64,000 nt of DNA from Dehalococcoidia bacterium (lineage in GTDB: Bacteria > Chloroflexota > Dehalococcoidia > SZUA-161). The stretch lies in the NCBI GenBank assembly GCA_014874385.1, contig JACWAE010000058.1, positions 1-64,000 of the forward strand, read 5' to 3'. The translations under genes were made by a program, and so were the position numbers. This document shows positions 13,113 through 35,142 of the stretch, one piece after another. Under the pieces are notes generated by a model. It did no database searches, had not been told where the DNA came from, and saw only the letters and a program-made list of their open reading frames with translations. The stretch's first letter is position 1. Each line of letters opens with the position of its first letter.

Positions 13113-13128
13113 TTCAGTACCTCCTCAA

Positions 13129-13680: not shown

Positions 13681-13699
13681 CTATGCAAGGTATCTTTGC

Positions 13700-15649: not shown

Positions 15650-15653
15650 CGGT

Positions 15654-18600
15654 CTACTCCTCCCCTCCTACTTCGAGGTCGCATCGCAGGCAGCGGGAGG
15701 CCTCCTCTCTGGCCTCGTTTGGTCTGAAAGCCAGCATAATCTCTTTGTAAGAAGACCTTCGCTCTCTGGTCTCTATCTCGGCAGGCTGCATTCTTGCTCT
15801 CTCCTTGACCTCCTCTTCAGTAGGAGCTATTTGAGGGACTTCTATAGGCTCGTAGCCGTCTCTCTCTACGAATGGAGAAAGCGGTTTACCCTGCAAATAT
15901 CGCTTAATGGACGTAGCAGCCCTTTGTCCGGCAGCTACCGCCCAGATCACAGTCTTGGGTCCGGTCATAGCATCGCCGCCGGCGAAAACGCCGGGCTTAT
16001 CGGTGGCCAGGGTGCGCGGGTCTGCTACAATGGTGCCTCCCTTACCCACTTTGACCCCGCCGTCTTTTATGAAGGCTGTGTCGGGCCGCTGTCCGATAGC
16101 CTCAATTACAGTGTCCACTGCCAAAGGATAGGTGTATTCCGGACCGGCCAGGGGACTCGGGGTGCGGCGGCCGCTGGAATCGAACCCCTTCAACTCCATG
16201 CGTACACATTCCAGTCCAGTCAACTTTCCGTTCTGGCTCAGCACCTTGGTGGGGGCGACCAGACAGTCGATATGGACGCCTTCTTTTTCGGCTGCTTCTA
16301 TCTCCTCTTCAATGGCTGGCATATCCCTGCGCTCTCTGCGGTAGAGGATATGCACTTCTTCAGCACCTTGCCTTACGGCTGACCGGGCAGCGTCTATAGC
16401 CGAGTTACCGCCGCCAACTACGGCCACCTTTTTACCGACCTTCGGTTTCTTACCCAAGCTCAACTCTCTGAGGAAGTCTATGGCATCGTAGACTCCTTCG
16501 ACATCCTCGCCGGGGATACCCATCTTGTCTCCCTTGTGAGCGCCGCAGGAAAGAAAGACCGCCTTGTAGCCTTCTTTGAACAGGCTGTCTACATCATTAA
16601 CCTTGGTATTCAGTTTAAGTTCCACTCCCAGCTTCAGGATGTTATCTATCTCGGCCTGCAGGACTTTCTTAGGCAGGCGGTACTCAGGGATAGCCACCGC
16701 CATCATGCCGCCGGCTACAGGTAATGCCTCGAAAACGGTTACATTGTAGCCCTCCCGGACTAACTCATAGGCTGCGGTTAGCCCCGCTGGCCCGGCGCCT
16801 ATGATGGCTACTCGCTCCGGCTTTCTGGGCTTCATGGGAGGCACGAACTTGACGCCGTTCTCGTAAGCATAGTCCGCAGCCATGCGCTTCAGGTCTCTAA
16901 TGGATATCGACTTATCAACCTGGGCGCGGCGGCACTTGACCTCGCAGGGGTGGTCGCAGACTCGGCCCACCGACATGGGGAAGGGCAGCCGCTGTCTGAT
17001 CAACTTGTAGGCATCGGCATATTTGCCTGCTTTAATCAAGGCTATATAGCCCGGACAGTCGAGCTCCACAGGGCAGGTATGCTGACAAGGAGCCCTGAAT
17101 AAGGGCTGGCATACTGCTGCGGGGCAGTGCTTGTCGATAATGTGTGCCTCGTACTCACTGCGGAAATGTCGCAGTGTGCTGAGCACCGGGTTGGGAGCGG
17201 TCTGGCCCAGGCCGCAAAGCGAGGCAGAGCCCACCATCTCAGCCAGCTCGCTGAGTACGTCCAGGTCCTCCATCGTGCCTTTGCCCATGGTTATCTTGTT
17301 TAATATCTCCAGCATCTTGGGGATGCCGGCGCGGCATGGTGTGCACTTGCCGCAGGACTCGTCTCTGGTGAACTGCAGGAAGAACTTGGCTACATCCACC
17401 ATACAGTTGTTCTCGTCCATTACAATGAGGCCGCCCGAGCCCATGATGGCTCCCAGGGCGGTAACGGCCTCGTAATCTATAGGAGTATTCAGATGTTCTA
17501 TAGGGATACAGCCGCCCGAAGGCCCACCTATCTGAACAGCCTTGAATTTCTTGCCCTCGGGTATGCCGCCGCCGATGTCGAAAACGATCTGTCCCAGCGG
17601 CGTGCTCAACGGTACTTCGATAAGCCCCGAATTATTTATCTTGCCTACCAGGCAGAATGTTTTGGTGCCCTTGCACCTATCGGAGCCTACACTGGCGAAC
17701 CAGTCAGCACCTTTGTGGATGATTTGAGGCACGTTCGACCAGGTTTCCACGTTATTTAACGTGGTAGGCTTATCCAGCAGCCCTTTATTGGCAGGGAATG
17801 GGGGTCGCTGGCGGGGATTGCCTCGTTTGCCTTCGATGGATGCCAGCAGGGCTGTCTCCTCACCGCAAACGAAAGCACCCGCGCCGGGGAAGACAGACAG
17901 GTCGAACTCAAAGTCGGTGCCCAGTATGTTTTTGCCCAGAAGCCCTAATTTGCGGGCTTCATCCAGGGCATGGTTGAATGTTTGAATGGCTAAGGGATAT
18001 TCGGCGCGGACATATGCATAGCCGCGGCGTACGTTGCCGATGGCATAGGCGCCGATTGCCATGCCCTCTATGATGGAGTGAGGATTGCCCTCCAAAACAG
18101 CTCTGTTCATATAAGCGCCGGGGTCGCCTTCGTCACCGTTACAGACGACAAACTTCTCATCGCCCACGGCCCTGCGCACAAAGCTCCACTTCGTCCCGGT
18201 GGGAAATCCGGCGCCGCCGCGCCCTCTCAGGCCAGCCTTGGTTATCTCATCGATGACTTCCTGGGGCTGCATCTTGCTTATGGCTTTAGCCAGGGCCTGG
18301 TAGCCATCTCTGGCGATATACTCCTCAATGCTCCTGGGGTCCATATCCTGGTTGTGCATAATCCGGATATTCTGGAGTTTGAAGGTGGGCGACTCCAGGT
18401 CGAGCAGCCACTCTTTAACGACCTCGCCCTTGATGAGGTGCTGTTCTACTATAGTGGGCACTTGCTCGGGCGTAAGGTTAGCGTAGATCACCCTACCCAT
18501 CTGGGGATGGACAACGGTAACTACCGGCTCACGCTCGCATGGCCCGATGCAGGCAGCCTCGGTGATAACCACGTTGGTCAGCTTGCGAGAGTTTACCTCT

Positions 18601-18758
18601 TTGACAAAGGCGTCTTGAACAAACTTGGCACCACCAGCTATACCGCAGGTGCCCAGGTGAACCTTGACCTCGATTTTTTTGGCACGCTCGGCCAGTTTAC
18701 TCTGGGCTGCCTCTTTTAGTGTATTGAGATCATCGACTGATGATAGACGCTTCGCCAT
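15654..18758 (-). CDS. HoxF/NuoF-like NADH-binding flavoprotein fused to a GltD/NfnB-like FAD-NAD(P)H oxidoreductase (1034 aa)
   Basis: Thioredoxin-like 2Fe-2S N-terminus (HLGTCGIAGGAKFV...EAACIGPCEREP), NuoF core (GLRGRGGAGFPTGTKWSF...CGEETALLASIEGKRGNPRQRPPFPA...ESCGKCTPCRAGIPKMLEIL), then GltD module (VERVAIIGAGPAGLTAAYELVREGYNVTVFEALPVAGGMMAVAIPEYRLPKKVL). Confidence 0.92.
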   Translation of the reverse strand: MAKRLSSVDDLNTLKEAAQSKLAERAKKIEVKVHLGTCGIAGGAKFVQDAFVKEVNSRKLTNVVITEAACIGPCEREPVVTVVHPQMGRVIYANLTPEQVPTIVEQHLIKGEVVKEWLLDLESPTFKLQNIRIMHNQDMDPRSIEEYIARDGYQALAKAISKMQPQEVIDEITKAGLRGRGGAGFPTGTKWSFVRRAVGDEKFVVCNGDEGDPGAYMNRAVLEGNPHSIIEGMAIGAYAIGNVRRGYAYVRAEYPLAIQTFNHALDEARKLGLLGKNILGTDFEFDLSVFPGAGAFVCGEETALLASIEGKRGNPRQRPPFPANKGLLDKPTTLNNVETWSNVPQIIHKGADWFASVGSDRCKGTKTFCLVGKINNSGLIEVPLSTPLGQIVFDIGGGIPEGKKFKAVQIGGPSGGCIPIEHLNTPIDYEAVTALGAIMGSGGLIVMDENNCMVDVAKFFLQFTRDESCGKCTPCRAGIPKMLEILNKITMGKGTMEDLDVLSELAEMVGSASLCGLGQTAPNPVLSTLRHFRSEYEAHIIDKHCPAAVCQPLFRAPCQHTCPVELDCPGYIALIKAGKYADAYKLIRQRLPFPMSVGRVCDHPCEVKCRRAQVDKSISIRDLKRMAADYAYENGVKFVPPMKPRKPERVAIIGAGPAGLTAAYELVREGYNVTVFEALPVAGGMMAVAIPEYRLPKKVLQAEIDNILKLGVELKLNTKVNDVDSLFKEGYKAVFLSCGAHKGDKMGIPGEDVEGVYDAIDFLRELSLGKKPKVGKKVAVVGGGNSAIDAARSAVRQGAEEVHILYRRERRDMPAIEEEIEAAEKEGVHIDCLVAPTKVLSQNGKLTGLECVRMELKGFDSSGRRTPSPLAGPEYTYPLAVDTVIEAIGQRPDTAFIKDGGVKVGKGGTIVADPRTLATDKPGVFAGGDAMTGPKTVIWAVAAGQRAATSIKRYLQGKPLSPFVERDGYEPIEVPQIAPTEEEVKERARMQPAEIETRERRSSYKEIMLAFRPNEAREEASRCLRCDLEVGGEE

Positions 18759-18766
18759 ATCTCCTC

Positions 18767-19279
18767 CTAAGCGTAAGAGCTCAAGACCTCTTTCATCTTT
18801 GTGGGACTCATCCGGCGGTAGACTTTCTCCTCAACTGATACCACGGGAGCCAGGCCACAGCATCCCAGGCATCTGACCATCTCCAGTGAGAATTGACCGT
18901 TTTTGGTTGTCTCGCCCGGCGCTATGCCCAATTCCTTTTGTAGAGTATTCAGAATCCTTTCGCCGCCGCGCACATAGCAGGATGTGCCCATGCACGTGGA
19001 GATAATATGCCTGCCTCTGGGAACCATGGTGAAGAACGAGTAGAAGGTGGTGACGCCATATATTGTGCTGAGTGGAATATTCAGGTCTCTAGAGATGGTT
19101 TGCAAGACGGGCAATGGTAGATAGCCTATTAATGCCTGTGCTCTTTGTAATACCGGGATCAATGCCCCGGCCTGCCCTCTGTTTTCATCGATTGCAGCCT
19201 GGACCTGGCGAAATATCTCGCCTGCGGTGCCTCGTCCTTCTGCTGTGGGGACTTTCTCTTTTACTGTCGGTTTAGCCAT
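18767..19279 (-). CDS. NuoE/HoxE-like 2Fe-2S subunit
   Basis: IDENRGQAGALIPVLQRAQALIGYLP...YGVTTFYSFFTMVPRGRHIISTCMGTSCYVRGGERIL...CLGCCGLAPVV. Confidence 0.93.
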   Translation of the reverse strand: MAKPTVKEKVPTAEGRGTAGEIFRQVQAAIDENRGQAGALIPVLQRAQALIGYLPLPVLQTISRDLNIPLSTIYGVTTFYSFFTMVPRGRHIISTCMGTSCYVRGGERILNTLQKELGIAPGETTKNGQFSLEMVRCLGCCGLAPVVSVEEKVYRRMSPTKMKEVLSSYA

Positions 19280-19290
19280 ATGAACCTCCC

Positions 19291-19755
19291 CTAGTGGTTT
19301 CCATTTAGCTCTTTAATGATGTGCTTAATGCATTTAGGAATCGCCCGTTGTACCCCGGGCGTAAATTCCTCACCGAAGTTGCTGACATCGTTCACCTCTA
19401 TGGCGTAGATAATGATTTGTTTGGGCATAGCTATGCCCAGTTTGTTACCAAGCTCAAGCGCAGTAGCGAAGTTTACATCGTGGGGCGAAGAAACATGCCG
19501 CGTGTTATTGAAAGCATCAGGGTTTAGACGATAAATCTGGCCCGTTTTCCCTTCTGCTGTCTGAATGGCATCAACAATAATAGCCTTATCGTAGCCAGCC
19601 AGCAGGTCTATCAAACTAAGACCTGACAAGCTGGTCTCCATAACCGTTACATCTTGTCGCTGGGCCAGTTTGGCTTCCAATTCTTGAGCGACGCGATTAC
19701 CAACGCCGTCATCTCTGAGTATCGGGTTGCCCAGCCCCAGAATCAATGTCTTCAT
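19291..19755 (-). CDS. [NiFe] hydrogenase maturation protease
   Basis: MKTLILGLGNPILRDDGVGNRVAQELEAKL...LSGLSLIDLLAGYDKAIIVDAIQT; the ORF track extends to 19803 but 19755 matches the family start. Confidence 0.93.
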   Translation of the reverse strand: MKTLILGLGNPILRDDGVGNRVAQELEAKLAQRQDVTVMETSLSGLSLIDLLAGYDKAIIVDAIQTAEGKTGQIYRLNPDAFNNTRHVSSPHDVNFATALELGNKLGIAMPKQIIIYAIEVNDVSNFGEEFTPGVQRAIPKCIKHIIKELNGNH

Positions 19756-19809
19756 TTTTCCTTTCTTTGGATAAGACAGACAGCGGCTGCTCTTATCTCC
19801 CAAGCAGCC

Positions 19810-21279
19810 CTATCCTAGGTTCTGGCTCAGTTTTTCTTTCACTTCTCCCTTGCTGTCGTAGATCACTATCTCCAGCGGCATCTGGCCTGGCAGCGTATGG
19901 GTGGCACAGGCCATGCACGGGTCATAAGCCCGGAATGCCATCTCAACCATATTTAGCAGCCCTTCACTGGCAGCCGTACCTTTCTTAATCAAGCCCTGGG
20001 CTGCTTTCTTGATTGACATCTGCATCGCAGGATAGTTATGAGCTGTTGCAACAATTAGGTTGACCTTGGTGACGATGCCGTTCTTGTCGGTCTGATAGTG
20101 ATGAATAAGGGTGCCGCGAGGCGCCTCCACAATACCTACTCCCTCATCAGGCGTAGCGGTGGGTATGGTGCGCACCCTGGGGTCGGTGACCTCTTTGTCC
20201 TGACATAGCTCCAGCAATCTCTCTGAGGCGTATAGAAGCTCTACCAGCCTAGCCCAGTGGAATGCCAGTGTGGCGTGGACGGGCTTGCCGCCCAGTGTCT
20301 TATACAGCTTGTCATATTCGGCCTGGGCTAAGGGTGTTGCCATGCCGTCGGCTGCATTGAGCCTTGCCAGCGGGCTGACTCTATAGACTCCGCTATCTTT
20401 ACCCTCGGTGAAACCCTTCCAGCCTACCTTCTTAAGGAAGGGGAACTTGAGGTATGACCAGGGCTCTGTATGTTCTGCTACATACTCCAGATACTGTGAA
20501 GGTTTAAACCTGGCGACCTCTTTCGCATCGGGGTCAACTACACGGACGTCTCCGTCGTAAAAATTTACTTTGTTATTGCTATCCACCAGTCCCATGTAGT
20601 AGCTCTTCATGGTATATACATTGCCGGTGATTATATTCAGGTAATCTTTATTAGCCAGAACTACATCGTTGAACAGCTTCAGGCTGAATTTGCTGAACTC
20701 GACACAGGATTTAGCTTTCTCCTCGAAGTCTTTTCGCTGCTCCTCGGTGATGGACTTGCTCATGCCTCCCGGAACGCCGCCTACGGGGTGGGTTGCCTTA
20801 CCGGCGATGGCTGCCTGGATGCTTTGTGCATAAGCACGATGCTTTATCACCTCACCGCCTACCTGAAGTCCAACCTTGGATATCACTCCCAGGATATTTC
20901 TTTGAGCAGGGTCACTGGTAGGCCCCATGACGAAGTCAGGAGCGGCCAGCGCATAGAAGTGGGCGATGTGAGAATGAATCATATGTGAGCAGTAGAAAAG
21001 CTCCCTCAGTTTCTTCCCTGCCGGCGGTAGTTCAACGTGGTACACAGCGTCTGTGGCCTTACACGAGGCCATGTGATGTGCCCCCGGTCAGACACCGCAT
21101 ATTCTGGGTACTATCCGCGGCAACTCCTCGACCGGCCTGCCTTCGCAGAACTTCTCGAATCCGCGGAGTTCAGGAATCTGGAGGTAGGCATTGGCAACAT
21201 CGCCAGCATCGTCGAGGAAAATATCTATCTTGCCGTGCCCTTCCAGCCTGGTTATGGGGTTAATGGTGATCTTTTTCAT
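19810..21279 (-). CDS. mvhA: F420-non-reducing (MvhA-type) [NiFe] hydrogenase large subunit, read as a selenoprotein with UGA at 21088-21090 (Sec64)
   Basis: Joining ORFs 21088..21279 and 19810..21072 in the same frame across one TGA gives a 489-aa MvhA: ...PRIVPRICGV-U-PGAHHMASCKATDAVYHVELPP...YDPCMACATHTLPGQMPL; bSECIS-like hairpin follows. Confidence 0.85.
21054..21071 (-). promoter_or_regulatory. bSECIS-like hairpin of mvhA
   Basis: RNA strand UGGCCU-CGUGUA-AGGCCA: perfect 6-bp stem, 6-nt loop starting 22 nt after UGA, G at loop position 2. Confidence 0.75.
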
Positions 21280-21295
21280 CCTATCCTCCCCCTAT

Positions 21296-22258
21296 CTAGC
21301 GCTTCTGGGGAATTTTCCTCTTCAGCATTGAAACCGACATGCCGAACCTGTAGAAGGTGCCGGCAGGGTCGACCAGCTCGTTTACCATCTTTTCGATATC
21401 TTGCTTGCCATTGGTTTCGTAAATCGACGCTATAGCGCTAATCAGCTTTGCCCCCTGGTCAGCGACCCCAGGCGGTGGCCCGAAGCAGCCGCGGCAGGGG
21501 ATGTTGACCTTGACGCATAGTGCGCCGCAACCACCTCTGGTGGCGGGGCCCATACATAGCAATCCTTGCTCCAGCAGACAGCGCTCCGGGTCAGGGATAA
21601 TCTCCTGAGTTCGGTATATCTTGGTTATCTTCTTGTTCTCTTTCTTGCGGTCGCATTCGTCGCATAGCGTCTTATCTGAGGCGATAACTGCGCCGACGGG
21701 CGGTAAACTGTTGGTAGCCAGGGCGTTCACAACTTTTAAGATCAGGTCTACTGTCGGCGGGCAGCCGGGCACGAAGTACTCTACGGGCACTACCTGAGCC
21801 AGGGTCAGCACGTTATCGTAAAGCTCGGGCAGCGTTAGCTCGCCTTCGGGTACGCTTACCTTTGTTTGTGGAAGCGTCTTATTGGGATTCTCGTTCGAAG
21901 GAGCCTCTATGTAAACTCTCTCCATGATCTCAGCGCGGGTAGCGAAATTAGCTAACGCTGGTATGCCGCCGAAACAGGCGCAAGAGCCGAATGATACCAA
22001 CACCTTGGACTTGGCGCGAAGCATTTTAGCTATATGCTCTTGCTCGGAGCTTCTGATAGCGCCATTGAACAGGCAGACATCAATGGACTTGTCCGGCATG
22101 GCTTCAACATGGTGGTATTTGAAGTCCAGCGCTATCGGCCAGAACACTATGTCCGCCAGATTGGCGACATCGAGAATCTTCTCATTGATATCAAGTACAG
22201 CGACATCACAGCCGCCACAGGCAGCAGCCCAGTAAAGAGCTAATTTCAGTTTAGCCAT
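21296..22258 (-). CDS. mvhG: F420-non-reducing hydrogenase small subunit (MvhG-type)
   Basis: KLALYWAAACGGCDVAVLDINEKIL...GSCACFGGIPALANF...VPGCPPTVDLILKVV...GCGALCVKVNIPCRGCFGPPPGV. Confidence 0.92.
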   Translation of the reverse strand: MAKLKLALYWAAACGGCDVAVLDINEKILDVANLADIVFWPIALDFKYHHVEAMPDKSIDVCLFNGAIRSSEQEHIAKMLRAKSKVLVSFGSCACFGGIPALANFATRAEIMERVYIEAPSNENPNKTLPQTKVSVPEGELTLPELYDNVLTLAQVVPVEYFVPGCPPTVDLILKVVNALATNSLPPVGAVIASDKTLCDECDRKKENKKITKIYRTQEIIPDPERCLLEQGLLCMGPATRGGCGALCVKVNIPCRGCFGPPPGVADQGAKLISAIASIYETNGKQDIEKMVNELVDPAGTFYRFGMSVSMLKRKIPQKR

Positions 22259-22673
22259 GCTTCCCTCCTTGATTCCAGTCCAAGGGGCCCAGCGCTCTTA
22301 CTTGCTCTGTCATATCGTTAACTATGGAAGCAAAGCGGTCTCCCTCTGAGGCGGAAACCCACTCCAACCTCAATCTCTTCTCATCGATTCCGAATTGGCC
22401 CAGCATTTTATTGAGCAAGGGTATGCGTCTTGCGGCTTTCTCATTACCTTCCAGGTAATGGCATTCTCCGAGGTGTCAGCCACAGACAAGCACACCGTCA
22501 GCCCCGCACTGGAATGCCTTGACTACGAAGGTCGGGTCTACCCTGCCGCTGCACATTACCCTTACTACCCGCACATTGGGGGCATACTTCTTTCGTGAAG
22601 TGCCTGCCAGGTCTGCCCCGGCGTAGGAGCACCAGTTACACAGGAACCCCACAATCTTTGGCTCAAAGCTCAT
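22251..22673 (-). CDS. mvhD: MvhD-type hydrogenase iron-sulfur (delta) subunit, read as a selenoprotein with UGA at 22476-22478 (Sec66)
   Basis: Translation across the [135 protein letters not shown]; overlaps mvhG start by 8 nt. Confidence 0.88.
22442..22460 (-). promoter_or_regulatory. bSECIS-like hairpin of mvhD
   Basis: RNA strand CAUUACC-UGGAA-GGUAAUG: perfect 7-bp stem, loop starts 22 nt after UGA, G at loop position 2. Confidence 0.8.
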
Positions 22674-24649
22674 ATCAGCACCCCCTCTACTTGTGCTAGA
22701 ATCTGCTCAGTGGTGAAGTGTTTGCTCACTATAGCTCCGGCGGGACAAGCGGCAGCACAGGTGCCGCAGCCTTTGCACAGAACCTCATTGATAACAGCGA
22801 TCTTTTTAGCTTCCTCGAAAGTGATGGCTTTGTATGGACAAAGGTCGATGCATGTCTTGCAGCCGGAGCAGAGTTTATCGTCAATGACCGATGTGGTGGC
22901 TTCGAGTTCGACCTTGCCCTTGCTGATCAGGGATAGAACACGCGCTGCTGCCGCTGCTGCCTGAGCTACTGTGTCAGGGATGTCCTTGGGGCCCTGGCAG
23001 CAACCAGCAATGTAGACACCATCGGTGCTGGTAGCTACGGGGTCTAGCTTGGGATGCTTCTCCAGGAAGAAACCATCGGCGGTCCTGCTCAGCGAGAACA
23101 GCTTTGCAACCGCACCAACATCGGCGCGTGGCTCGATGGCCGTGCTCAGAATGACCATGTCGACTGGGATACGGCGCTGTTTGCCGACGAGAGTGTCCTC
23201 ACATAGCACGATGAGTTTGCCCTCCTCACCAGGTTTCTCGGCTATATTGGAGACCTCACCGGCGCGGCCTCTGATAAAGCGGACTCTTTCTTCCTGAAGC
23301 CTGTTATAGAACTCCTCGTAGCCTTTGCCGAAGCAGCGCATGTCTATATACATCTGGTAGATGTATGCATCGGGTATCTTCTCTCTGATTATGTGGGAGA
23401 ACTTTAACGAATACATGCAGCAGACTCGCGAGCAGTACTCGTGGTAATTCTTATCGCGGCTACCCATACAGTGCAGGATAGCTACGTTCTTCGGTGTTGA
23501 GCCATCCTTGAGCACAATTTTACCGTTGGTAGGACCGGAGGCGTTACTCATTCTCTCGAACTCAATGCCTGTGTAGACATTGGGGTAGCGTCCATAGCCG
23601 TACGCAGTCATGGGTGTCGGGTCGAAGGAATCGAAGCCGGTAGTAACTATGATGGAGCCGACTTCCACCTCGACTATCTTCTCTTTTTGTTCGAAATCAA
23701 TGGCCTTGGCCTCGCAGAATTTCTCGCAGGCGCGGCACTTGCCCTTCAGGAAGAAAGTGCAGTGCTCTTTGTCTATTACAGGTATATTAGGCACTGCCTG
23801 AGGGAAGGGGGTGTATATGGCTTTCCTGATGCCAAGCCCAGCATCGAATTCACTGCTTACCTTTATGGGACATTTGTCTCTACAGACGCCGCAGCCGGTG
23901 CATTTGTCCTCGTTAACATAGCGTGGATTCTTCCTGACCTTGACCTTGAAGTTGCCTACGTAACCTGATACATTCAGCACCTCGCTGTATGTCATCATCT
24001 CAATGTTTTCGTGTGACCTCACCGAGGCCATCTTCGGAGTGAGTATTCAGGCCGAACAGTCGAGGGTAGGAAAGGTCTTGTCGAGCTGAGCCATGTGGCC
24101 GCCGATGGATGGCTCCCTTTCCACCAGGTAGACTTTATGACCTGAGTTAGCGATCTCGAGAGCTGCCTGAATGCCAGCGATGCCGGCACCTACAACCAGG
24201 GTGTTGGGGTTCATGGAGACCTCTCTGATCTCCAGCGGCTGGTGATAGGAGACCTTCCTCACTGCTGCGCTCACCAGAGCCTTGGCTTTTTGGGTTGCTA
24301 GCTCTTTATCCTCGGTCACCCAGGCCACTTGCTCGCGGATGTTGGCCGTCTCCATTAGATACGGGTTTAAACCAACACTAGCCAAGGTGCGCCTGAAGGT
24401 GACCTCATGGAGGCGTGGCGAGCAGGACGATATCACTACACGGTTCAGCTTCTGCTCTTTGATGTCCTTCTTGACCATGTCCTGCCCGGGGTCTGAGCAA
24501 ACAAACTTATATTCCCTGGCTATTACCACTCCAGGCAGGCCTTTGGCGAATTCAACTACCTGAGGGACATCTACCGTGCTAGCTATATTTGCTCCGCAGT
24601 CGCAGGCATATACACCGATTCTTTGTTCCATTTTATCCCCCCTCGGCAC
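22670..24649 (-). CDS. hdrA: HdrA-type heterodisulfide reductase flavoprotein, read as a selenoprotein with UGA at 24047-24049 (Sec201)
   Basis: Joining ORFs 24047..24649 and 22670..24031 in frame: [73 protein letters not shown]...; 659 aa; hairpin follows the UGA. Confidence 0.9.
24014..24030 (-). promoter_or_regulatory. bSECIS-like hairpin of hdrA
   Basis: RNA strand UGGCCU-CGGUG-AGGUCA: 6-bp stem (one G-U), loop starts 22 nt after UGA, G at loop position 2. Confidence 0.75.
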
Positions 24650-25523
24650 CTTTCAGCGATTTGGCGAGCACTTTATCGGCTGAGACTATGCATTTTTCAA
24701 TGCCCAGGGTCTTATTATCTATTCCGAAGGCTATACCCATGAGCTGAGTGAAGAATAAGACGGGGATTTTGTAATTGGTTTTAAATTTCTTATTAACCTT
24801 CCCTTGATAGAGATCAAGATTTGTTTGACATAACGGGCAAACAGTGACGATTAATTCTGCTCCGTTGCTGACTGCGTTCTCGAGCAGTCTATGTATGGAT
24901 TGTAGGGCGAGGTCCTCTTCCGACAATATTAGAGAGCCGCCACAGCAGCGTGTCTTTAGCGGGAATGGTGTGGCTTTCGCTCCCAGGCTTTCAACCAGTT
25001 TGTCCAGCGATTGGGGATCTTCCGGATGGTCAAAGCTAGGCAGGGGACGCACTACCTGACAGCCATAGTAGGGAGCTACCTTAAGTTCCCCCAGATTTAC
25101 CTTGACCTTGGATTTGATTTCGTCATAGCCTATGTCATTAGCGATAACATCGAGTATATGACGTATCCTCATGGTTCCATGGTACTCTAGGCCGGCGGCT
25201 GCCAATGCCGCATCCAGGATGGCCTTCATCTTGGTATTTTCCTGGAAGCGACGGTTGGTTTTACACAACATGAGATAACAGTCGCTGCACTCCGTTACAA
25301 TGTCAAGTCCCTTCTTTTCAGCTAGAGCCAGGTTGCGAGCCGAATGGCATAACGAAGCTACTTCACTGACTGAGGCTTGGGGTGTTGACCCGCAGCAGTT
25401 CCAATCCTCAAGTTCGATGAGGTCTAAGTCCATAGGTTTGGCTACGGCTAGTAAGGACAAGCCGTACGCCACACCATTTCCATCCAGACAGCAACCCGGG
25501 AAAAAAGTATAGTGTCTTCTCAT
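24633..25523 (-). CDS. hdrB: CoB-CoM heterodisulfide reductase subunit B-like (HdrB)
   Basis: FFPGCCLDGNGVAYGLSLLAVAKPMDLDLIELEDWNCCGSTPQAS and TRCCGGSL CCG motifs. Confidence 0.92.
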   Translation of the reverse strand: MRRHYTFFPGCCLDGNGVAYGLSLLAVAKPMDLDLIELEDWNCCGSTPQASVSEVASLCHSARNLALAEKKGLDIVTECSDCYLMLCKTNRRFQENTKMKAILDAALAAAGLEYHGTMRIRHILDVIANDIGYDEIKSKVKVNLGELKVAPYYGCQVVRPLPSFDHPEDPQSLDKLVESLGAKATPFPLKTRCCGGSLILSEEDLALQSIHRLLENAVSNGAELIVTVCPLCQTNLDLYQGKVNKKFKTNYKIPVLFFTQLMGIAFGIDNKTLGIEKCIVSADKVLAKSLKGAEGG

Positions 25524-26096
25524 TTATATCCTCCCTGCCAGTTCCTCAGCCTTATCCACGATCGTTTTGAGCTGACGCTCCGCCTCTGGCTTCAATCTTC
25601 TGGTTTTAAGAAACAGGCGCTTGTGTCTGAGCAGGCTGAGCGCTACAGGTAACATCTTTAGAGCACGCAGCGGGTTGCTGCGTAAATAGTACAAGGCCAT
25701 GAAACCTACATCGGGGACGTTGCCCAGGCTATAGGCGAAGTCGCTAAAGCTTGCATACATAGCGGGGGTTGTGATGGAAGCATTTTTAGAAGGATATTTA
25801 ATAGCCATAGATTCCAGGGCATGCATCAGTTCTGTGGGCCTGATATCCCTCGGACAGCGCACTGTGCAAAGGTAGCATGAGGCGCAGCACCACATGGAGT
25901 TGCTCGACAGCACTTCATTTTTCATCCCGGCGCGTGCCATAGCGATGATCTGACGAGGCGTATAGTCCATCTTATTAACATTGGGGCAGGACGCGGAGCA
26001 GGTGCCGCATTGAATGCACAGGCGAATCTTCTCGCCGCCGGGGATGCTGCAGATTTCGTCTATAAATGCCTTTGTTTCTTTTTCTTTAGTCTCCAT
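25524..26096 (-). CDS. hdrC: Heterodisulfide reductase subunit C-like (HdrC)
   Basis: RLCIQCGTCSASCPNVNKMDYTPRQIIAMARAGMKNEVLSSNSMWCCASCYLCTVRCPRDI. Confidence 0.92.
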   Translation of the reverse strand: METKEKETKAFIDEICSIPGGEKIRLCIQCGTCSASCPNVNKMDYTPRQIIAMARAGMKNEVLSSNSMWCCASCYLCTVRCPRDIRPTELMHALESMAIKYPSKNASITTPAMYASFSDFAYSLGNVPDVGFMALYYLRSNPLRALKMLPVALSLLRHKRLFLKTRRLKPEAERQLKTIVDKAEELAGRI

Positions 26097-26601: not shown

Positions 26602-26961
26602 TTAGCTCCTCTTGCCTTGCCGGGGTTTCATAGCGCTGTCAATGCCTTTTCCCGGGAGCTTCAGTTCGATAGTCCTGCCACCGCTGTATTTCTTATATAC
26701 CCGGCATATTGCACAAATGCTGGTGTCTGTCCCCGTAACGATGGCTCCATTCTTCTGCAATTTACAGAATGTGCCTTCGATTTCCCAGCAGGGGAGGAAG
26801 GTGTAGGTTGAGCCCGGGCATTCGTTCTTGATAGATGGTGGACAGTGGCACATCTCCCAGCAGGCCGTTTTGCCGGCCCAGAAGTCGGCTCCGGCTTCGC
26901 GGGCAAGTTCTTCTTCTTTGCCCGGAGCTTGTTCCAGCAATCGTCTTACTCTAGTTTTCAT
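26602..26961 (-). CDS. Cys-rich two-CW-domain-like protein
   Basis: FWAGKTACWEMCHCPPSIKNECPGSTYTFLPCWEIEGTFCKLQKNGAIVTGTDTSICAICRVYKKY. Confidence 0.75.
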   Translation of the reverse strand: MKTRVRRLLEQAPGKEEELAREAGADFWAGKTACWEMCHCPPSIKNECPGSTYTFLPCWEIEGTFCKLQKNGAIVTGTDTSICAICRVYKKYSGGRTIELKLPGKGIDSAMKPRQGKRS

Positions 26962-27294
26962 CTCTTGAACCTCTTTATCACCTTCATATTTATACTATCA
27001 CTGCGAAGGAGTAACTAACTTCCGCAGTAGTGCCTGTTCCTACTGAATCGAAGCAGGTATTTCTACCTGTCTGACATCGGGAAGGGTAAGCACTCATGCT
27101 TATTCCTAGCTCATCTATAATTTCAACCTCGTTTGTCCTGGCTATTACATTCTGATTCAACTGGAGCCTCTTCCAACTTGTGCCTTATATTTGCCCCCTA
27201 TTTTTCCCATTTCAGTTAACTATCAAATTACGACCTTGGTTGCCAGGCTGGCTTCAACTATATAAACGGTAATATAATGGCCTTGACATAGCTT

Positions 27295-27993
27295 TTACAC
27301 TTCTGGTGTAGCTTGTGGCACGTCCTCTAGGGTAATACAGCCCTTTTGCAACCCGCGGACCACGGCTTCGGTTCGCGAGCTAACCCCCATTTTATTGAAA
27401 ATCTGCGCCACGTGTCCCTGAACCGTGCGTATACTCAGTCCCAGCTCGCTGGCAATCTCCTTGTTGGTGAGACCACGGGTCATCAGCTTGAGGAGACCTA
27501 TCTCACGCTCGGTCAACTCCCCGGGTATAGCCATATTCGAGAGTTTTCCCGATGTCATCGCAATCCGGCTTAATACTTTGCGGGCAATCGTGGGATGAAG
27601 CACGGACTCTCCCTGATAAACGGCTCTAACGCCGGAAACAAGTTCTTGAGTGTGAACGGTCTTCAGAAGGTAGCCGGCGGCTCCTGCTTGAAGCAGCTTG
27701 AACACGAATTGGTCATCGTCGTGCGCGGACAGTATTAGCACATTTACGTCCGGACATACGTGTTTGATCTGCTTTGTGGCTTCAATACCGTCCAATTTGG
27801 GCATAGCGATATCCATTAAAACGATATTAGGTTTGAGTTCCGTGGCCAGACGTACCGCCTCTTCTCCATCCCATGCCTCTGCGACCACCTCCATATCCGG
27901 CTCCTCCTCCAGGACTTTCCGGGTGCCTTCACGCAAGACGGTATGGTCGTCAGCAACTATGATCTTTATTTTCTCGGTCGAAATGTTGCCCAT
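27295..27993 (-). CDS. NarL/FixJ-family response regulator
   Basis: Receiver (IIVADDHTVLREGTRKVLEEEPDMEVVAEAWDGEEAVRLA) plus LuxR HTH (LTEREIGLLKLMTRGLTNKEIASELGLSIRTVQGHVAQIFNKMGVSSRTEAV). Confidence 0.95.
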   Translation of the reverse strand: MGNISTEKIKIIVADDHTVLREGTRKVLEEEPDMEVVAEAWDGEEAVRLATELKPNIVLMDIAMPKLDGIEATKQIKHVCPDVNVLILSAHDDDQFVFKLLQAGAAGYLLKTVHTQELVSGVRAVYQGESVLHPTIARKVLSRIAMTSGKLSNMAIPGELTEREIGLLKLMTRGLTNKEIASELGLSIRTVQGHVAQIFNKMGVSSRTEAVVRGLQKGCITLEDVPQATPEV

Positions 27994-28122
27994 ATAACAC
28001 CCCTACCACATAACTATTTGCCTCTATTATTTATCTCCTTTTGGGAAATGGCATCGTATTTATGCGCAATTCCATACAGGCAGTAACACTGTATTTGCGT
28101 TTTCAATTTAAATCGGCTTAGT

Positions 28123-28268
28123 AGGCAATAATGCCTGAACAACTAGGCCATTATGCCTAGGCTAGCGCATGAAAGTGAAAACTCTCCATGACAATAATGC
28201 CTGGCCTAAGAGACCATGATGCCTGGGGAAATGTCTGAAAGTGTAGACGTCGCCCATAATAAATGCCT
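28123..28268. promoter_or_regulatory. Operator-like array: five TGCCT half-sites, two within full AGGC(A/C)-N4-TGCCT palindromes, on a 22-bp grid
   Basis: TGCCT at 28132, 28154, 28198, 28220, 28264 (spacings 22, 44, 22, 44); AGGCAATAATGCCT at 28123. Confidence 0.6.
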
Positions 28269-28355
28269 GAGAATTTAACCGTAGGTTGGACGGTGTGTAA
28301 CGCAGGATATCGAGAGATAATACAAACATCAAAGGACTTCTGGAAGGAGGATGCC

Positions 28356-28550
28356 ATGAAAGCACAGGGTGGATATTTCGAAAACACAACCAGCTTAAAG
28401 AGGGGTAGCGAAGCTGATGGTGGTGATGTGTTGGCAATGAAGAGGTGCGCGGAGAAAATCTGGAATGCCATATCGAAGTACGTAGTCTTTGACAATGACG
28501 CCATTTTCAAAGACCCGAATTGGCCCTATCTGTGGACTAACAAAAAATAA
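28356..28550 (+). CDS. Small protein of a duplicated family (64 aa)
   Basis: ATG 28356 after GGAGG; MKAQGGYFENTT...AEKIWNAISKYVVFDNDAIFKDPNWPYLWTNKK*; paralogue at 28699. Confidence 0.7.
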   Translation: MKAQGGYFENTTSLKRGSEADGGDVLAMKRCAEKIWNAISKYVVFDNDAIFKDPNWPYLWTNKK

Positions 28551-28698: not shown

Positions 28699-28884
28699 AT
28701 GCAAGCATATTTGGAACTGACTGTGAAAGAGGCTTACTGGGAAGAAGTAGAGACTGAAAAAAAGGGAATGCTGGATTTCTTAAGAAAAACCTGGAACACT
28801 CTCCGGAACACCATAACTAAGTATGTGACATATGACAAAGACGCAATATTTAAGGATCGCAATTGGCCTTATCTCTGGTCATAG
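28699..28884 (+). CDS. Small protein of a duplicated family (61 aa)
   Basis: MQAYLELTVKEAYWEEVETEKKGMLDFLRKTWNTLRNTITKYVTYDKDAIFKDRNWPYLWS*; preceded by GGAGG. Confidence 0.7.
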   Translation: MQAYLELTVKEAYWEEVETEKKGMLDFLRKTWNTLRNTITKYVTYDKDAIFKDRNWPYLWS

Positions 28885-29020: not shown

Positions 29021-29132
29021 AAATGTACGACCGGCTTGCTTCAGTTGATGTGACCACAATTCATACCGCGAATAAACAGGCATTTATACGGTTGCACACC
29101 TGCGCAATTAGCGCCGCTTGAAAGAAGCGACA

Positions 29133-29146
29133 AGGCACTAATGCCT
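29133..29146. promoter_or_regulatory. AGGCA-N4-TGCCT palindrome
   Basis: AGGCACTAATGCCT upstream of the 29168/29234 gene; same motif as the 28123 array. Confidence 0.5.
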
Positions 29147-29233
29147 ATGCTTAATTGGGCATAATGTGTGATGACAGCGCATGGGCAAAAGATAAATAAT
29201 GCAAATGAACTGATAGAAGAGGAGGAGGACAAA

Positions 29234-30058
29234 ATGGCAATTATCACCCTAACCAGGGGAACATATAGCGGCGCTAGGGACCTGGGTCAATACTTAGCGC
29301 AGAAGCTCGGGTATAAGCTATTGTCCAGGGAAACAATTATCGAAAAACTGGTGGAATACGGATGGGTAGATGAAAAGCTGGGTAGGGTTCGCCAAAAACA
29401 ACTGGGTGTGCTACAGCGCATGAATCTGGAATGGATTCACTATGTTGCCTGTCTTCGGGCTGTACTGAGCAAAGAAGCGCAAAATGAAGCCTTGGTCTAT
29501 CATGGGAACAACGGACAGGCAGCACTCCGTGGCTTTCCGCATATCCTGAGCATAAAAGTTACTGCAGACATGAAATACCGTATAAAAGCTGTCATGGAGC
29601 GCAATGAGTACGCAATCGACCAGAAAGAGGCAATAGAGATAATCCACAGGATTGATGAGCGAAGGGAAAGATGGTCAAAATTCCTTTATCAAACAGATGG
29701 CAACGATGCCTCGGCCTTTGATATGATAATAGATTTGAGCCATAAAAGCATACCCGATGCTTATGAGATGATACATGCCACTGTTTCACTCCCGCAGTTT
29801 CAACCAACCCCCAACTCGAAGAAGGTCATCGAGAATTTGACACGCGCTGCCCAACTGAGAGCCAGGATAGCAATGGAGGCCGACATTGTAGATGATGAGA
29901 TCGAAGTTGAAGTCAATGATGGCGTGCTCAACGTCAAAGGAGTAGTACACTCACAGGATGATGCTGATAAACTCAGGGAGTTCCTCTCTCGTCAGCCAGA
30001 GGTTCATGAGGTCGTGAGTCACCTGGCGAAAGCACCGCAAGAAATCGACACCGGGTAA
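29234..30058 (+). CDS. Cytidylate kinase-like protein with C-terminal BON domain
   Basis: MAIITLTRGTYSGARDLGQYLAQKLGYKLLSRETI...C-terminal DDEIEVEVNDGVLNVKGVVHSQDDADKLREFLSRQPEVHEV (BON); ATG 29234 has a GGAGGAGG upstream. Confidence 0.8.
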   Translation: MAIITLTRGTYSGARDLGQYLAQKLGYKLLSRETIIEKLVEYGWVDEKLGRVRQKQLGVLQRMNLEWIHYVACLRAVLSKEAQNEALVYHGNNGQAALRGFPHILSIKVTADMKYRIKAVMERNEYAIDQKEAIEIIHRIDERRERWSKFLYQTDGNDASAFDMIIDLSHKSIPDAYEMIHATVSLPQFQPTPNSKKVIENLTRAAQLRARIAMEADIVDDEIEVEVNDGVLNVKGVVHSQDDADKLREFLSRQPEVHEVVSHLAKAPQEIDTG

Positions 30059-30214
30059 ATACAAGCAGGCATTCATTACCATAACACTATATAAGCCTCG
30101 GACTTTTTTGTGAGGTGAAACTATAGATTGACAGGTGAAGTAGGCCTTAATCCTGCATAGTGGCGAAGACGTCGAAAATCGCGTCTATGTTTTGCAGAAA
30201 GGAATAAGAGCAGA

Positions 30215-31504
30215 ATGCGGTTTTTTAATGAATGTGGCAGGTATTTAATGGCCAGCGCTACTGCCCATGCCAGGTGGGAGATCAATATATCCAATACCAT
30301 ATTTCGAGACCGGAAGCGACTTCTCTTGCTGGCGCTGCTCATGGCTTCTGTAATCATTGGCATGTTTACATGCTATGCCTTTGCACAGGGTGACAGCGCG
30401 CTTCCAAATACGCTGGGAGGAAGCTCCGCTTACACCCCGGCTACATATACAGTAGGCATATTTCTGGCGGCAATTCTTGTAGGGCTTATCGCCGGACTGA
30501 TAACCGGCTGCATTGGCGCCGGCGGAGGTTTTATTATTACTCCGGCTCTGATGAGCTTCGGGATCAAAGGTATCCTGGCTGTAGGAACGGACCTCTTTCA
30601 CATCTTTGCCAAGGCCATCATGGGGGCGGTAATTCATAGAAAACTGGGTAATGTGGCAGTAAAAATAGCCATAGCCTTCGGGGTTGGTTCTCTAATAGGG
30701 GCAACAATAGGCGGTATTATTAACAGGGCGCTTTATGAAAGAAACCCTGTTCTGAGCGACGCGTTCATTACCTCAATCTACTCAGTCATGCTGGGATTCC
30801 TGGGGGTTTATGCCCTCAGGCAGTTCCTCAAGAGCCGGAAAACCGGTGGGGGCGTTTCTCCTGAAGGCGGCGGTGAAGTTGAAGAGCTAGGCAAATTACC
30901 CCAGAAGATGCAGTCAGTTAATATCCCGCCCATGATAGGGTTCGATCGCCATATCGTCCCGGGTGGACGCAGGATATCGTGGGTTTTCGTCGCCGTCATT
31001 GGCCTTCTGGTCGGTTTTGTTGCCAGTATCATGGGGGTCGGTGGTGGTTTCCTGACCTTCCCCATGTTCGTTTTCACACTGGGCATATCATCCACGACCA
31101 CAGTAGGGACTGACATTTTTCAGATAATATTTACAGGTGGTTACTCAGCGATCGTGCAGTATGCAATATACGGCTTCATATTCTATACGCTGGCTGTGGG
31201 TATGCTGCTGGGTTCGCTGATAGGCATACAGATAGGGGCACTGGTCACCAGAGTTGTGCCAGGCACACACATACGCGGCTTCTACGCGATGGCTGTGCTT
31301 GCGGGTTTCGCCAATCGCATATTTGCACTACCGGGCAAGCTGGGTTCGTTGGGTGTAGTTCCAATATCGACGAGCACAGGTAATTTACTTGCAAATATAG
31401 GAATATGGGTGTTCTTCATCGTCCTCGGCATTTTCACGATCTGGGTGATTGGAACGTTCGTACGAAGCATAAAAAAGCTTAAAGGAATAGAGGTGAAAAC
31501 ATGA
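30215..31504 (+). CDS. Sulfite exporter TauE/SafE family membrane protein
   Basis: Repeated GAGGGFIITPALMSFGIKGILAVGTDLFHIFAKAI / GVGGGFLTFPMFVFTLGISSTTTVGTDIFQIIFT motifs. Confidence 0.9.
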   Translation: MRFFNECGRYLMASATAHARWEINISNTIFRDRKRLLLLALLMASVIIGMFTCYAFAQGDSALPNTLGGSSAYTPATYTVGIFLAAILVGLIAGLITGCIGAGGGFIITPALMSFGIKGILAVGTDLFHIFAKAIMGAVIHRKLGNVAVKIAIAFGVGSLIGATIGGIINRALYERNPVLSDAFITSIYSVMLGFLGVYALRQFLKSRKTGGGVSPEGGGEVEELGKLPQKMQSVNIPPMIGFDRHIVPGGRRISWVFVAVIGLLVGFVASIMGVGGGFLTFPMFVFTLGISSTTTVGTDIFQIIFTGGYSAIVQYAIYGFIFYTLAVGMLLGSLIGIQIGALVTRVVPGTHIRGFYAMAVLAGFANRIFALPGKLGSLGVVPISTSTGNLLANIGIWVFFIVLGIFTIWVIGTFVRSIKKLKGIEVKT

Positions 31505-32229
31505 TCCCCGATAAGATCAAGTTCTATACCGGTGTGGGGATGCTGGTGCTTTTTGCGGGCGTACTGGCGACAATGTTCTCACCGGTCTTTGACGGTAAGA
31601 ATGGGATGCAATACGTAGATGAGCTATATAATTCCATATCAAAGGGTTCAGCTTACTATATACCGAACGTTGAGGAAGACAGCGCCAAATATGTGGGCAC
31701 TCCACTGGCTGTTACTATCAAGATGAAGACTGAGGAACAGGCAAATCAAACCGCTCTACTTTATCAGGCGAGCGGCGCGGAGGTAACTACTTCGGGAGCC
31801 AAGCTGACGATCGATGGGGATTTGGGCAAAATCCTTGAAGCCAGCCTCAGCGATGCAGATGCCATGTATCATGACCAGGGAGAGCAGATAGCGGCTAAGT
31901 ACGGCTACGATGGAAAGCAGGTACTTTACAATTGGTGGCAATCGTTTAAAGCATTAGACAGTTACCTTAAGGACGAAGGCATATTTGACCAGGCTAAGAT
32001 TCTAGAAGAAGCGCAGCAGCGAGCGATCGAGCCCGCGTATAATTACTATGGGATACAAGCCGAACACATAAAAGACAAAGCTGGTATTGTAATATTTTCA
32101 TTGGTTTTCTACGTAGCTTATACAGTGTGGTACGGTTTTGCTATAATGAACGTGCTCGAAGGCTTAGGTCTGAAAATAAAGCAGATGCTTCCCTTCAGTT
32201 TTATGGCCATAATGAAGGACAACAAGTAA
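31501..32229 (+). CDS. Hypothetical membrane protein co-transcribed with TauE/SafE
   Basis: ATGA overlap with upstream gene; N- and C-terminal TM helices. Confidence 0.65.
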   Translation: MIPDKIKFYTGVGMLVLFAGVLATMFSPVFDGKNGMQYVDELYNSISKGSAYYIPNVEEDSAKYVGTPLAVTIKMKTEEQANQTALLYQASGAEVTTSGAKLTIDGDLGKILEASLSDADAMYHDQGEQIAAKYGYDGKQVLYNWWQSFKALDSYLKDEGIFDQAKILEEAQQRAIEPAYNYYGIQAEHIKDKAGIVIFSLVFYVAYTVWYGFAIMNVLEGLGLKIKQMLPFSFMAIMKDNK

Positions 32230-32498: not shown

Positions 32499-33164
32499 AT
32501 GGACCGAATCAAGTTGCTGATTGCGGATGACCATGCGTTGGTGCGTGAAGGCACTCGGCGAATCCTGGAGGCAGAAAAGGACCTGAAGGTAATCGCTGAG
32601 GCTGGCGATGGTGAGGAAGCGGTGAGATTGGCCACCAGCCTGGCTCCGGATGTGGCTATTATCGACATCGCTATGCCCAAGCTCGACGGCATTGAAGTCA
32701 CAAGACGAATCAAAGCATCCTGCCCCAAAACAGCAGTGCTGATACTCAGTGCCTATGACGATGATCAGTTCGTCTTCGACCTTTTGGAAGCTGGAGCTGC
32801 CGGATATCTGTTGAAGAGCGTGCGGGGCCAGGAACTGGTCAACGCCGTTAGAGCCATATACGCCGGTGAATCTGTGCTTCATCCATTAGTTGCCCGCAAA
32901 GTGTTGAACCATTTTGTGTCCTCTCCTGGTAAAACTAAAAAGCAGAAGCCGTTAGAGATACTTACGCAGCGAGAAATGGATATTCTTAAGCTGGTTACAA
33001 GAGGTCTTAGCAATAAAGAGATTGCCGACGAGCTTTTTTTAAGCCTGCGTACAGTTCAAGGTCACGTGGGAAGCATCTTTAGCAAAATTGGGGTAGGGTC
33101 ACGGACAGAGGCTGTAGTTCGCGCGTTGAAGGAAGGCTGGGTAACTCTCGAGGATATTCCGTGA
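32499..33164 (+). CDS. NarL/FixJ-family response regulator
   Basis: MDRIKLLIADDHALVREGTRRILEAEKDLKVIAEAGDG...LTQREMDILKLVTRGLSNKEIADELFLSLRTVQGHVGSIFSKIGVGSRTEAV. Confidence 0.95.
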   Translation: MDRIKLLIADDHALVREGTRRILEAEKDLKVIAEAGDGEEAVRLATSLAPDVAIIDIAMPKLDGIEVTRRIKASCPKTAVLILSAYDDDQFVFDLLEAGAAGYLLKSVRGQELVNAVRAIYAGESVLHPLVARKVLNHFVSSPGKTKKQKPLEILTQREMDILKLVTRGLSNKEIADELFLSLRTVQGHVGSIFSKIGVGSRTEAVVRALKEGWVTLEDIP

Positions 33165-33198: not shown

Positions 33199-35142
33199 AT
33201 GGTACGTAGACTCCTGGCAAGCTCAATAAGCTCGCTGGTAAGCAATGCACGTAAGCCTGGTTTCTGGCTCATTGTTGTCCTGTTCATCGCTATCTCGATT
33301 CCGTACTACTATGAGACGCTTCATCCGCCTTTCGTACAACGTGTTTTCAACTACCTGGGGCTAGATAGACTTTCCTTTGAGCGGACACTATATATCGTAC
33401 CAATAATTCTTTCCGGCTTCCTGTTCGGGTCCAAAGGGGCCTATATAGCTTCGACAGTTGCTCTATGTTGCATGGTACCTCGTGCTGTCATCATCTCGCC
33501 ACACACTGCTGACGCCCTGTTCGAATCGGGCACCGTTTTTCTCGTGGGCATTCTGGTGGGCTTCACATTCACATCGCTGCAGAAGGAGCGAAGACGGCGT
33601 ATGCAAGTCGATGCGCTCAACCAAACCGCTCTTGTAGTTTCCCAGTCTCTGGAATTGGACCCTGTCCTGAAAAGCAGCATCGACAGTGTTGTCGAAGTGA
33701 TGAAGGTCGATGTTGCGCAAGTATTTCTCGTCGACGAGGGAGCCGGCGATCTTACACTTGCTGCTTACAGGGGTGTTTCTCGAGAATTCGCGCAGGGCGT
33801 TGATCGGTTAAAAATAGGAGAAGGATTAAATGGACTGGTAGCCCAGACTGGCGCGCCAACCTATGTTGAAAACGCCTCTGCCGATCCCCGGTTAACCAGG
33901 ACGGTATTGAAAGAGGACCGTATTGGTTCAATGCTCATTGTTCCCCTGAAGTCCAAAGATAAAGTCATGGGCACACTCTGTGTGAGCATGCGAGGGTATC
34001 GTAAATTCAACCAAGATGAGGTTGAATTGCTTACAAACATCGGTAATCAGGTTGGAGTTGCTATAGAGAACGTGCGATTGTATCAGCAGCAGCGGGGATT
34101 CACCGAGCAGTTGCGCGCTTCTGAAGAACGATACCGCGAGCTGTTCGAGAACGCTAACGATGGCATCTGGGTTCATGATTTGGAAGGCAATATCATAGCT
34201 GCCAATAAGGCCAGCGAGAAGCTCACAGGCTATACTCTGGATGAAATGGCTAAAACTGATAAATTGAATGTGAGCGTATTTCTTAACGGCGAAGGACTCA
34301 ATCTGGCCAAGGAGATAAGGCGCAGGTTGCTGGCCAATGTACCTCTGACGCAGCCGTATGAGCAGCGCATAGTCAGGGGGGATGGCACAGAGGCAATACT
34401 GATGATGACCACCAACTTGGTGACAGAGGACGGTAAGCCTGTAGCCTTCCAGCATATTGCCCGAGATGTGACTGAAGAGAAGCGAATGAAGGAAAACCTG
34501 CACTTCTACCTGCAGCAGATTACCAGGACTCAGGAAGAGGAGAGGAAACGCATCGCCCGTGAGCTTCACGATGATACCATGCAGTATCTAGTTGTCCTCG
34601 CACGTCAGTTGGATGAACTTGCCTACAGCAGCAAGTTGATGTCCCAGGAGGAGAAAGCGAAGCTGGAGGAGCTGAGGCAGCAGACTACTGGCATAATGGA
34701 AGGCGTGCGGCGCTTGAGCCACGACCTCCGGCCTGCTACCTTGGACAGGCTGGGCCTGCTTCCGGCGCTGGAATGGCTGGCCTCTCAGGTCCCTTCGGGG
34801 ATAAGTATAGAAGTCAAGGCATACGGAACCGAACGGAGACTTCCTGCTGAAGTGGAACTGGTATTGTTCCGCATCGCCCAGGAGGCACTGAGCAATGTCC
34901 GACGGCATTCTCAGGCAACCGAGGCTGAGGTTAAAGTAGAGTTCGAGGATAAGAAAACCAGGATAACGGTCAAGGATAATGGTAAAGGTTTTATTCTCCC
35001 TGAGATAATGAGCGATCTGGTTAAAGCAGGCAGGCTGGGCCTGGCCGGGATGCAGGAAAGGATCCAGTTGCTGAACGGGAGCCTGAAGATTGAGTCGGAG
35101 CCTGGAAGGGGCACTACAGTAACGGTTGAGGCACCGCTATAA
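33199..35142 (+). CDS. Sensor histidine kinase (TM, GAF, PAS, HisKA_3, HATPase)
   Basis: GAF (ALVVSQSLELDPVLKSSIDSVVEVMKVDVAQVFLVDEG), PAS (ELFENANDGIWVHDLEGNIIAANKASEKLTGYT), HisKA_3 (EEERKRIARELHDDTMQYLVVLARQLDEL), HATPase (ALSNVRRHSQATEAEVKVE). Confidence 0.95.
   Translation: MVRRLLASSISSLVSNARKPGFWLIVVLFIAISIPYYYETLHPPFVQRVFNYLGLDRLSFERTLYIVPIILSGFLFGSKGAYIASTVALCCMVPRAVIISPHTADALFESGTVFLVGILVGFTFTSLQKERRRRMQVDALNQTALVVSQSLELDPVLKSSIDSVVEVMKVDVAQVFLVDEGAGDLTLAAYRGVSREFAQGVDRLKIGEGLNGLVAQTGAPTYVENASADPRLTRTVLKEDRIGSMLIVPLKSKDKVMGTLCVSMRGYRKFNQDEVELLTNIGNQVGVAIENVRLYQQQRGFTEQLRASEERYRELFENANDGIWVHDLEGNIIAANKASEKLTGYTLDEMAKTDKLNVSVFLNGEGLNLAKEIRRRLLANVPLTQPYEQRIVRGDGTEAILMMTTNLVTEDGKPVAFQHIARDVTEEKRMKENLHFYLQQITRTQEEERKRIARELHDDTMQYLVVLARQLDELAYSSKLMSQEEKAKLEELRQQTTGIMEGVRRLSHDLRPATLDRLGLLPALEWLASQVPSGISIEVKAYGTERRLPAEVELVLFRIAQEALSNVRRHSQATEAEVKVEFEDKKTRITVKDNGKGFILPEIMSDLVKAGRLGLAGMQERIQLLNGSLKIESEPGRGTTVTVEAPL

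Follow-up and report, generated by a model that had tools for sequence, protein, structure and literature searches.

The window, that is, the whole 64,000-nucleotide stretch of DNA analysed here, carries a phased array of short repeated sites between the divergent genes of a NarL-type response regulator (RR1) and a small protein (sp1). The genes and sites around the array are as follows:

25524-26096, minus strand: HdrC-like subunit, the first hdr gene
26602-26961, minus strand: p26602, a small Cys-rich protein whose homologs adjoin response regulator (RR) genes in many genomes
27087-27102, unstranded: dyad TAAGCACTCATGCTTA (10/12), upstream of p26602 and the hdr genes
27295-27993, minus strand: RR1, NarL/GerE-type response regulator (Pfam Response_reg 4.2e-29, GerE 4e-18)
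28122-28137, plus strand: array site 1, dyad TAGGCAATAATGCCTG (11/12), with the 14-bp core found at the dsrM and atp promoters
28144-28159, plus strand: array site 2, dyad TAGGCCATTATGCCTA (11/12), identical in the same-genus genome G001
28188-28203, plus strand: array site 3, right half kept (ATGACAATAATGCCTG)
28210-28225, plus strand: array site 4, right half kept (GAGACCATGATGCCTG)
28254-28269, plus strand: array site 5, nothing but the right half (CCATAATAAATGCCTG)
28126-28248, plus strand: 57-nt unit present twice at 66 bp spacing, 72% identical (copies 28126-28182 and 28192-28248)
28356-28550, plus strand: sp1, small protein (64 aa)
28699-28884, plus strand: sp2 (61 aa), paralog of sp1 in its C-terminal half, in 3 of 245 genomes of the class
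29132-29147, plus strand: dyad AAGGCACTAATGCCTA, upstream of the kinase-BON/TauE genes and followed by a conserved TAATTRRGCA
29234-30058, plus strand: cytidylate-kinase-like and BON protein (Pfam PF13189 3.4e-28, BON 3.3e-6)
30215-31504, plus strand: TauE/SafE-family transporter (Pfam 4.4e-39)
31501-32229, plus strand: 242-aa protein, no family found, overlapping the end of the TauE gene
32499-33164, plus strand: RR2, second NarL-type regulator, without a dyad of its own
33199-35142, plus strand: GAF/PAS histidine kinase (HisKA_3)

RR1 combines a receiver with a GerE output domain, as expected of a NarL/FixJ response regulator, and aligns over its full length with VraR (7ve6, 1.3e-42), NarL (1a04, 4.1e-32) and DevR (3c3w, 1.2e-31); against these three, its recognition helix is RTVQGHVAQIF. 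RR1 is adjoined by a cluster at 11676-26096 that comprises two [NiFe] hydrogenase sets, NuoEFG-like subunits and HdrABC-like proteins, which is a probable electron-bifurcating complex. p26602 is rich in Cys and Trp (GKTPCWEM..CPA..CWEIEGTFCKL..DTSICAICRVYKKY) and has no match in the family libraries. The tandem paralogs sp1 and sp2 end in YVxxDxDAIFKDxNWPYLW and have no Pfam or NCBIfam family match; among the 245 class genomes, they occur only in the genome under study (G000), in one of the same genus (G001; JAJYLC010000010, Chloroflexi bacterium DBS2-1.bin62), where there is a weak third copy (C59), and in one of another genus (G008; CP070819.1, Dehalococcoidia bacterium bin1158). The cytidylate-kinase-like/BON and TauE-type neighbors (29234-31504) have paralogs at L171:4239-6624, on a contig that also bears sat-apr and Qmo/Hdr-like genes, which suggests a sulfur-related role for the pair.

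In the array, TGCCT occurs at 28132, 28154, 28198, 28220 and 28264 on a strict 22-bp grid, exactly as the initial annotation had claimed, and this grid divides 28122-28275 into the blocks A B C A' B' C' A''. The sites occupy the A and B blocks and TGAAAGTG occupies the C blocks, and the 66-bp tandem repeat described earlier, with TGAAAGTG at an equal offset in both copies, was recovered. The sequences AGGCAATAATGCCT at 28123, AGGCCATTATGCCT at 28145 and AGGCACTAATGCCT at 29133 were also read as previously reported. The full site had been given as AGGCA-N4-TGCCT; this pattern is present at 28123 and 28145, but the site is more accurately given as the 16-bp dyad TAGGCA-N4-TGCCTA, with the consensus TAGGCAWTWWTGCCTA. 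Only the dyads at 28122 and 28144 are good ones, and those at 28188, 28210 and 28254 retain mainly the right half. Markov simulation of the 64-kb window (300 runs) yielded at most two TGCCT in a 22-bp phase, and 60 runs that admitted every period of 10-40 bp yielded at most three, versus the five observed; the five-member series is far above chance. The 14-mer AGGCN4ATGCCT, with one mismatch allowed, has 12 matches in the window alone against 7.1 expected, which is not significant; statistical support lies in the exact dyad and the places where it stands, not in this count. The duplication of the ABC blocks indicates that the array grew through a 66-bp duplication in the genus of G000 and G001. 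Directly past the array, at 28280-28297, lies an inverted repeat, ACCGT-N7-ACGGT, that is kept in G001 and not in G008.

The genome motif scan that had been proposed as a check placed TAGGCAWTWWTGCCTA, within one mismatch, at five positions in the 2.8-Mb genome, all of them promoters: C43:6316, C118:25125, C42:17488 and the array dyads 28122 and 28144. In these pattern searches, with the reversed motif as the control, TAGGCAWTWWTGCCTA with up to two mismatches gave 12 forward and 12 reverse matches, versus 2 and 1 in the control, and AGGCATTATTGCCT with up to one mismatch gave eight versus none; the remaining one-mismatch 14-mer matches lie inside genes or at gene starts. At C43:6316, the promoter belongs to a gene upstream of dsrM, dsrK, dsrJ, dsrO, dsrP and a DsrA-like start (DsrK, DsrM and DsrP score above the NCBIfam cut-offs, as does DsrA of the G001 ortholog). 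C42:17488 lies between sat-aprB-aprA (Sat and AprB above the cut-off) and a divergent NarL-type regulator gene that is followed by a histidine kinase gene, and the palindrome conserved at sat is TAAGCAATAATGCCTA. C118:25125 is upstream of the ATP-synthase operon, whose promoter matches that of dsrM at 89% over approximately 185 bp. The atp copy also holds a frame-broken start of the gene preceding dsrM (L034:7020-7300 on C118; L117:945-1185; two genomes).

As copies of a single element, the promoters of dsrM, atp and sat share 130-185 bp with 82-89% identity; they therefore do not count as independent cases, and the weight is carried by other genomes. Across these three promoters in two genomes, the dyad is invariant in 15 of 16 columns. 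From its resemblance to the dsrM promoter, the ATP synthase appears to have been put behind a dsr-type control region by promoter duplication. The 22-bp phase is absent at the dsr-type promoters, where half-sites are approximately 29 and 34 bp apart. A AAGCCGATT box seen both at these promoters and on the array flank facing RR1 was considered and set aside: the spacing is not the same in the two settings (a difference of 7 bp), and the box begins with altered bases in G001.

Elsewhere in the window, the palindrome noted earlier at 29133 recurs as the 16-bp dyad 29132-29147 at the kinase promoter, and it is kept in G000, G001 and G008. Another dyad, TAAGCACTCATGCTTA at 27087, ahead of p26602/hdr, was absent from the initial annotation; the dyad at the corresponding position of G001 scores 11/12, and in G008 an 11/12 dyad stands upstream of a p26602 homolog. 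Both copies are weaker than the array, dsrM, sat and atp dyads. The half-sites listed at 28568, 30067 and 32284 do not stand, since TGCCT and AGGCA together number 246 in the 64 kb, so that these occur at background density, and they are altered in the same-genus genome.

The genomes compared are MAG contigs, and much of the detailed alignment rests on two closely related genomes. The dyad arrangements at dsrM, sat, atp and the array are all four present in G001. In the G001 array, two TGCCT have become TGCTT and there is a 1-bp deletion ahead of the last site; identity with G000 is 75/80 at dyad positions versus 57/74 in the linkers (Fisher p=0.005). In G008, the gene order RR1-sp1-sp2-kinase-TauE-RR2-kinase is kept, and only a single weak dyad is found at the array location. 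The 22-bp phasing, whose conservation in orthologous regions had been named as the decisive check, is therefore kept within the genus and absent in the other genus; the phasing is a genus-level elaboration, and the dyad is older.

A search of 393 class genomes for the exact 16-mer found it in 10, versus none for the reversed control. In G012, of another family, an exact dyad lies at dsrM, and an 11/12 dyad upstream of dsrA adjoins an RR-kinase pair. Exact dyads precede hdrC in G005; in G254 and G391, they lie upstream of a membrane pyrophosphatase recognized by its sequence. G158 and G198 (family f46) have them ahead of a NarL-type regulator gene, which in G158 is adjoined by a p26602 homolog, and also ahead of formate dehydrogenase. 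The exact dyads of G371 and G091 are genic and are probably due to chance. A homolog of the dsrM neighbor is present in 4 of the 10 dyad genomes versus 6 of the 383 others (Fisher p=4e-5, kinship ignored). The promoters of dsrM in G003, G179 and G096 and in members of family f15 were read and hold no clear dyad. The sites, their placement at promoters and their recurrence across genera are matters of direct observation.

The dyad is also statistically linked to RR genes. Among 41 RR genes gathered by protein similarity alone, a dyad of at least 11/12 lies within 300 bp upstream of five, versus 0.017 expected, and one of at least 10/12 upstream of six, versus 0.55 expected, with some of the dyad-bearing genes being same-genus ortholog pairs. 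The dyad-bearing regulators are scattered over several branches of the regulator tree, and the specificity therefore seems common to the family rather than unique to RR1; the genome holds several RR paralogs, among them RR1 and the sat-linked regulator on C42. Homologs of p26602 adjoin NarL-type regulators in approximately half of their loci. A relaxed 7-2-7 dyad, chosen after the sites had been inspected, is found upstream of 11 of 31 such homologs, mostly at 100-200 bp, versus 0.28 expected, and of 7 of 26 once the genomes already discussed are left out. RR2, which had also been put forward as part of the system, has no dyad within 300 bp upstream in the window, G001 or G008.

NarL recognizes inverted heptamers 2 bp apart, as in the engineered test site TACCCCTAAAGGGGTA (PMC4549865). 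The same 7-2-7 arrangement, TAGGCAT-TA-TTGCCTA, is found at dsrM and atp in two genomes, and the layout of the E. coli NarL/NarP sites (TACCCCT-AA-AGGGGTA) is common with TAGGCATTATTGCCTA. As with NarL/NarP, a REC-GerE regulator is accompanied by a HisKA_3 kinase and the targets are respiratory genes. On the other hand, the heptamer here is TAGGCAW with the core GGCA, whereas that of NarL/NarP has the core CCCC/CCAT, so that it is not a NarL box; moreover, the targets belong to sulfate respiration and ATP synthase instead of nitrate respiration, and the 22-bp-phased multi-site array has no NarL/NarP counterpart. The earlier reading of the site as an operator of the NarL family is thus supported by the 7-2-7 geometry, by dyads ahead of the family's own regulator genes and by the enrichment tests, except for the part given to RR2. 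RR1 is the most likely candidate for the binder.

It is unlikely, though worth weighing, that the dyad is a true operator of sulfate respiration bound by another factor of the CRP/FNR, ArsR or Rex type, with the NarL-type genes being mere targets. The 5-4-5 spacing suits CRP/FNR dimers as well, and genes of the CRP and ArsR types are found close to dsr in G001, but the flanking T and A widen the site to 7-2-7, and the recurrent neighbor of the dyad across families is a NarL-type gene, not a CRP or ArsR gene. In Desulfovibrio, sat and apr are controlled by HcpR (CRP/FNR family) and Rex, and these functional targets are common with the dyad system; however, the HcpR motifs (wTGTGAnnnnnnTCACAw and TTGACnnnnGTCAA) are unlike AGGCA-N4-TGCCT, and neither TGTGA-N6-TCACA nor TTGAC-N4-GTCAA was found at sat/apr. 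HcpR and Rex are one-component regulators with other DNA motifs, whereas a two-component NarL-type system appears to act here. The conserved dyad does not appear to resemble the Rex site. No report of an AGGCA-N4-TGCCT-type motif was found in the openly accessible literature, subscription papers lying largely outside the search, and the parts of a D. vulgaris response-regulator mapping reached by a key-term search make no mention of sulfite reductase or dsr.

A reading of the repeats as dispersed non-coding DNA with no part in regulation, either MITE-like or a recombination scar, is very improbable. The 82-89% identity over 130-185 bp at dsrM, atp and sat and the broken gene start in the atp copy would suit such an element, yet the copies lie at identical promoters in G001, the dyad recurs in unrelated flanks (G012, G005, G158, G198 and G254) and is better conserved than the linkers, and the array shows only a local 66-bp duplication; all locations are promoters common to both genomes. 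Least probable of all are RNA hairpins acting in transcribed leaders by attenuation. The array strand does fold better than shuffled sequences (z -3.9), but palindromes by themselves would give this result. In array sites 3-5, the left half has decayed and the right half persists; in addition, terminator-like sites were not found, an Rfam search gave no family match, and the sites lie upstream of candidate -10 boxes.

Based on the results presented above, the dyad very probably acts as the DNA switch for a so far undescribed regulon of energy metabolism, because the array site also precedes the sulfate-respiration and ATP-synthase operons. We consider it likely, from the comparative sequence data, that in these Chloroflexota a family of NarL-type two-component response regulators uses TAGGCAWTWWTGCCTA as its operator and controls, along with its own genes, a regulon for sulfate respiration and energy conservation. 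A phosphorylated RR dimer would bind the dyad in a 7-2-7 manner; we infer that this regulator is RR1, the sat-linked regulator on C42 or several paralogs with one specificity. Its targets would be the dsrMKJOP-dsrA, sat-aprBA, ATP-synthase, p26602/hdr and kinase-TauE operons, together with the NarL-type regulator genes themselves, which would amount to autoregulation, and it would coordinate the activation and reduction of sulfate with electron transfer and ATP synthesis. The initial annotation had confined the regulon to 28-33 kb; the idea of a regulon is supported but not this extent, as the best copies at dsrMKJOP, sat-aprBA and atp lie elsewhere and a weaker one stands ahead of p26602/hdr on the other side of RR1. 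The array would be the multi-site version at the divergent RR1/sp1 promoter and would probably give cooperative or graded control of RR1 and sp1-sp2.

The regulator may mainly activate. Candidate -10 boxes are GATAAT at 28316 (sp1) and AATAAT near 29195 (kinase), and in both cases the site center lies approximately 55 bp upstream of the box, as would fit an activator. The dsrM dyad has a TATAAT-like box 3 bp past it, as would fit a repressor better, unless a downstream TATACT-like box is used. The signal may be a sulfur or redox cue read by a GAF/PAS kinase.

The chances are about even that this is a class-wide two-component regulon of uncultured Dehalococcoidia, run by NarL-type regulators with a new heptamer specificity, which ATP synthase joined in this genus when the dsr promoter was copied in front of it. 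Such a regulon would switch sulfate respiration jointly with one of several partners: ATP synthase, heterodisulfide reductase, formate dehydrogenase or pyrophosphatase. Most of what is known about the control of dissimilatory sulfate reduction comes from Desulfovibrio (HcpR and Rex), and the specific candidate operator, regulators and kinases described here would link the whole sulfate pathway with ATP synthase in an uncultured phylum. The dyad may serve as a sequence tag to find energy-metabolism regulons in uncultivable genomes, and the dsr/atp case would be an example of regulon growth via promoter duplication.
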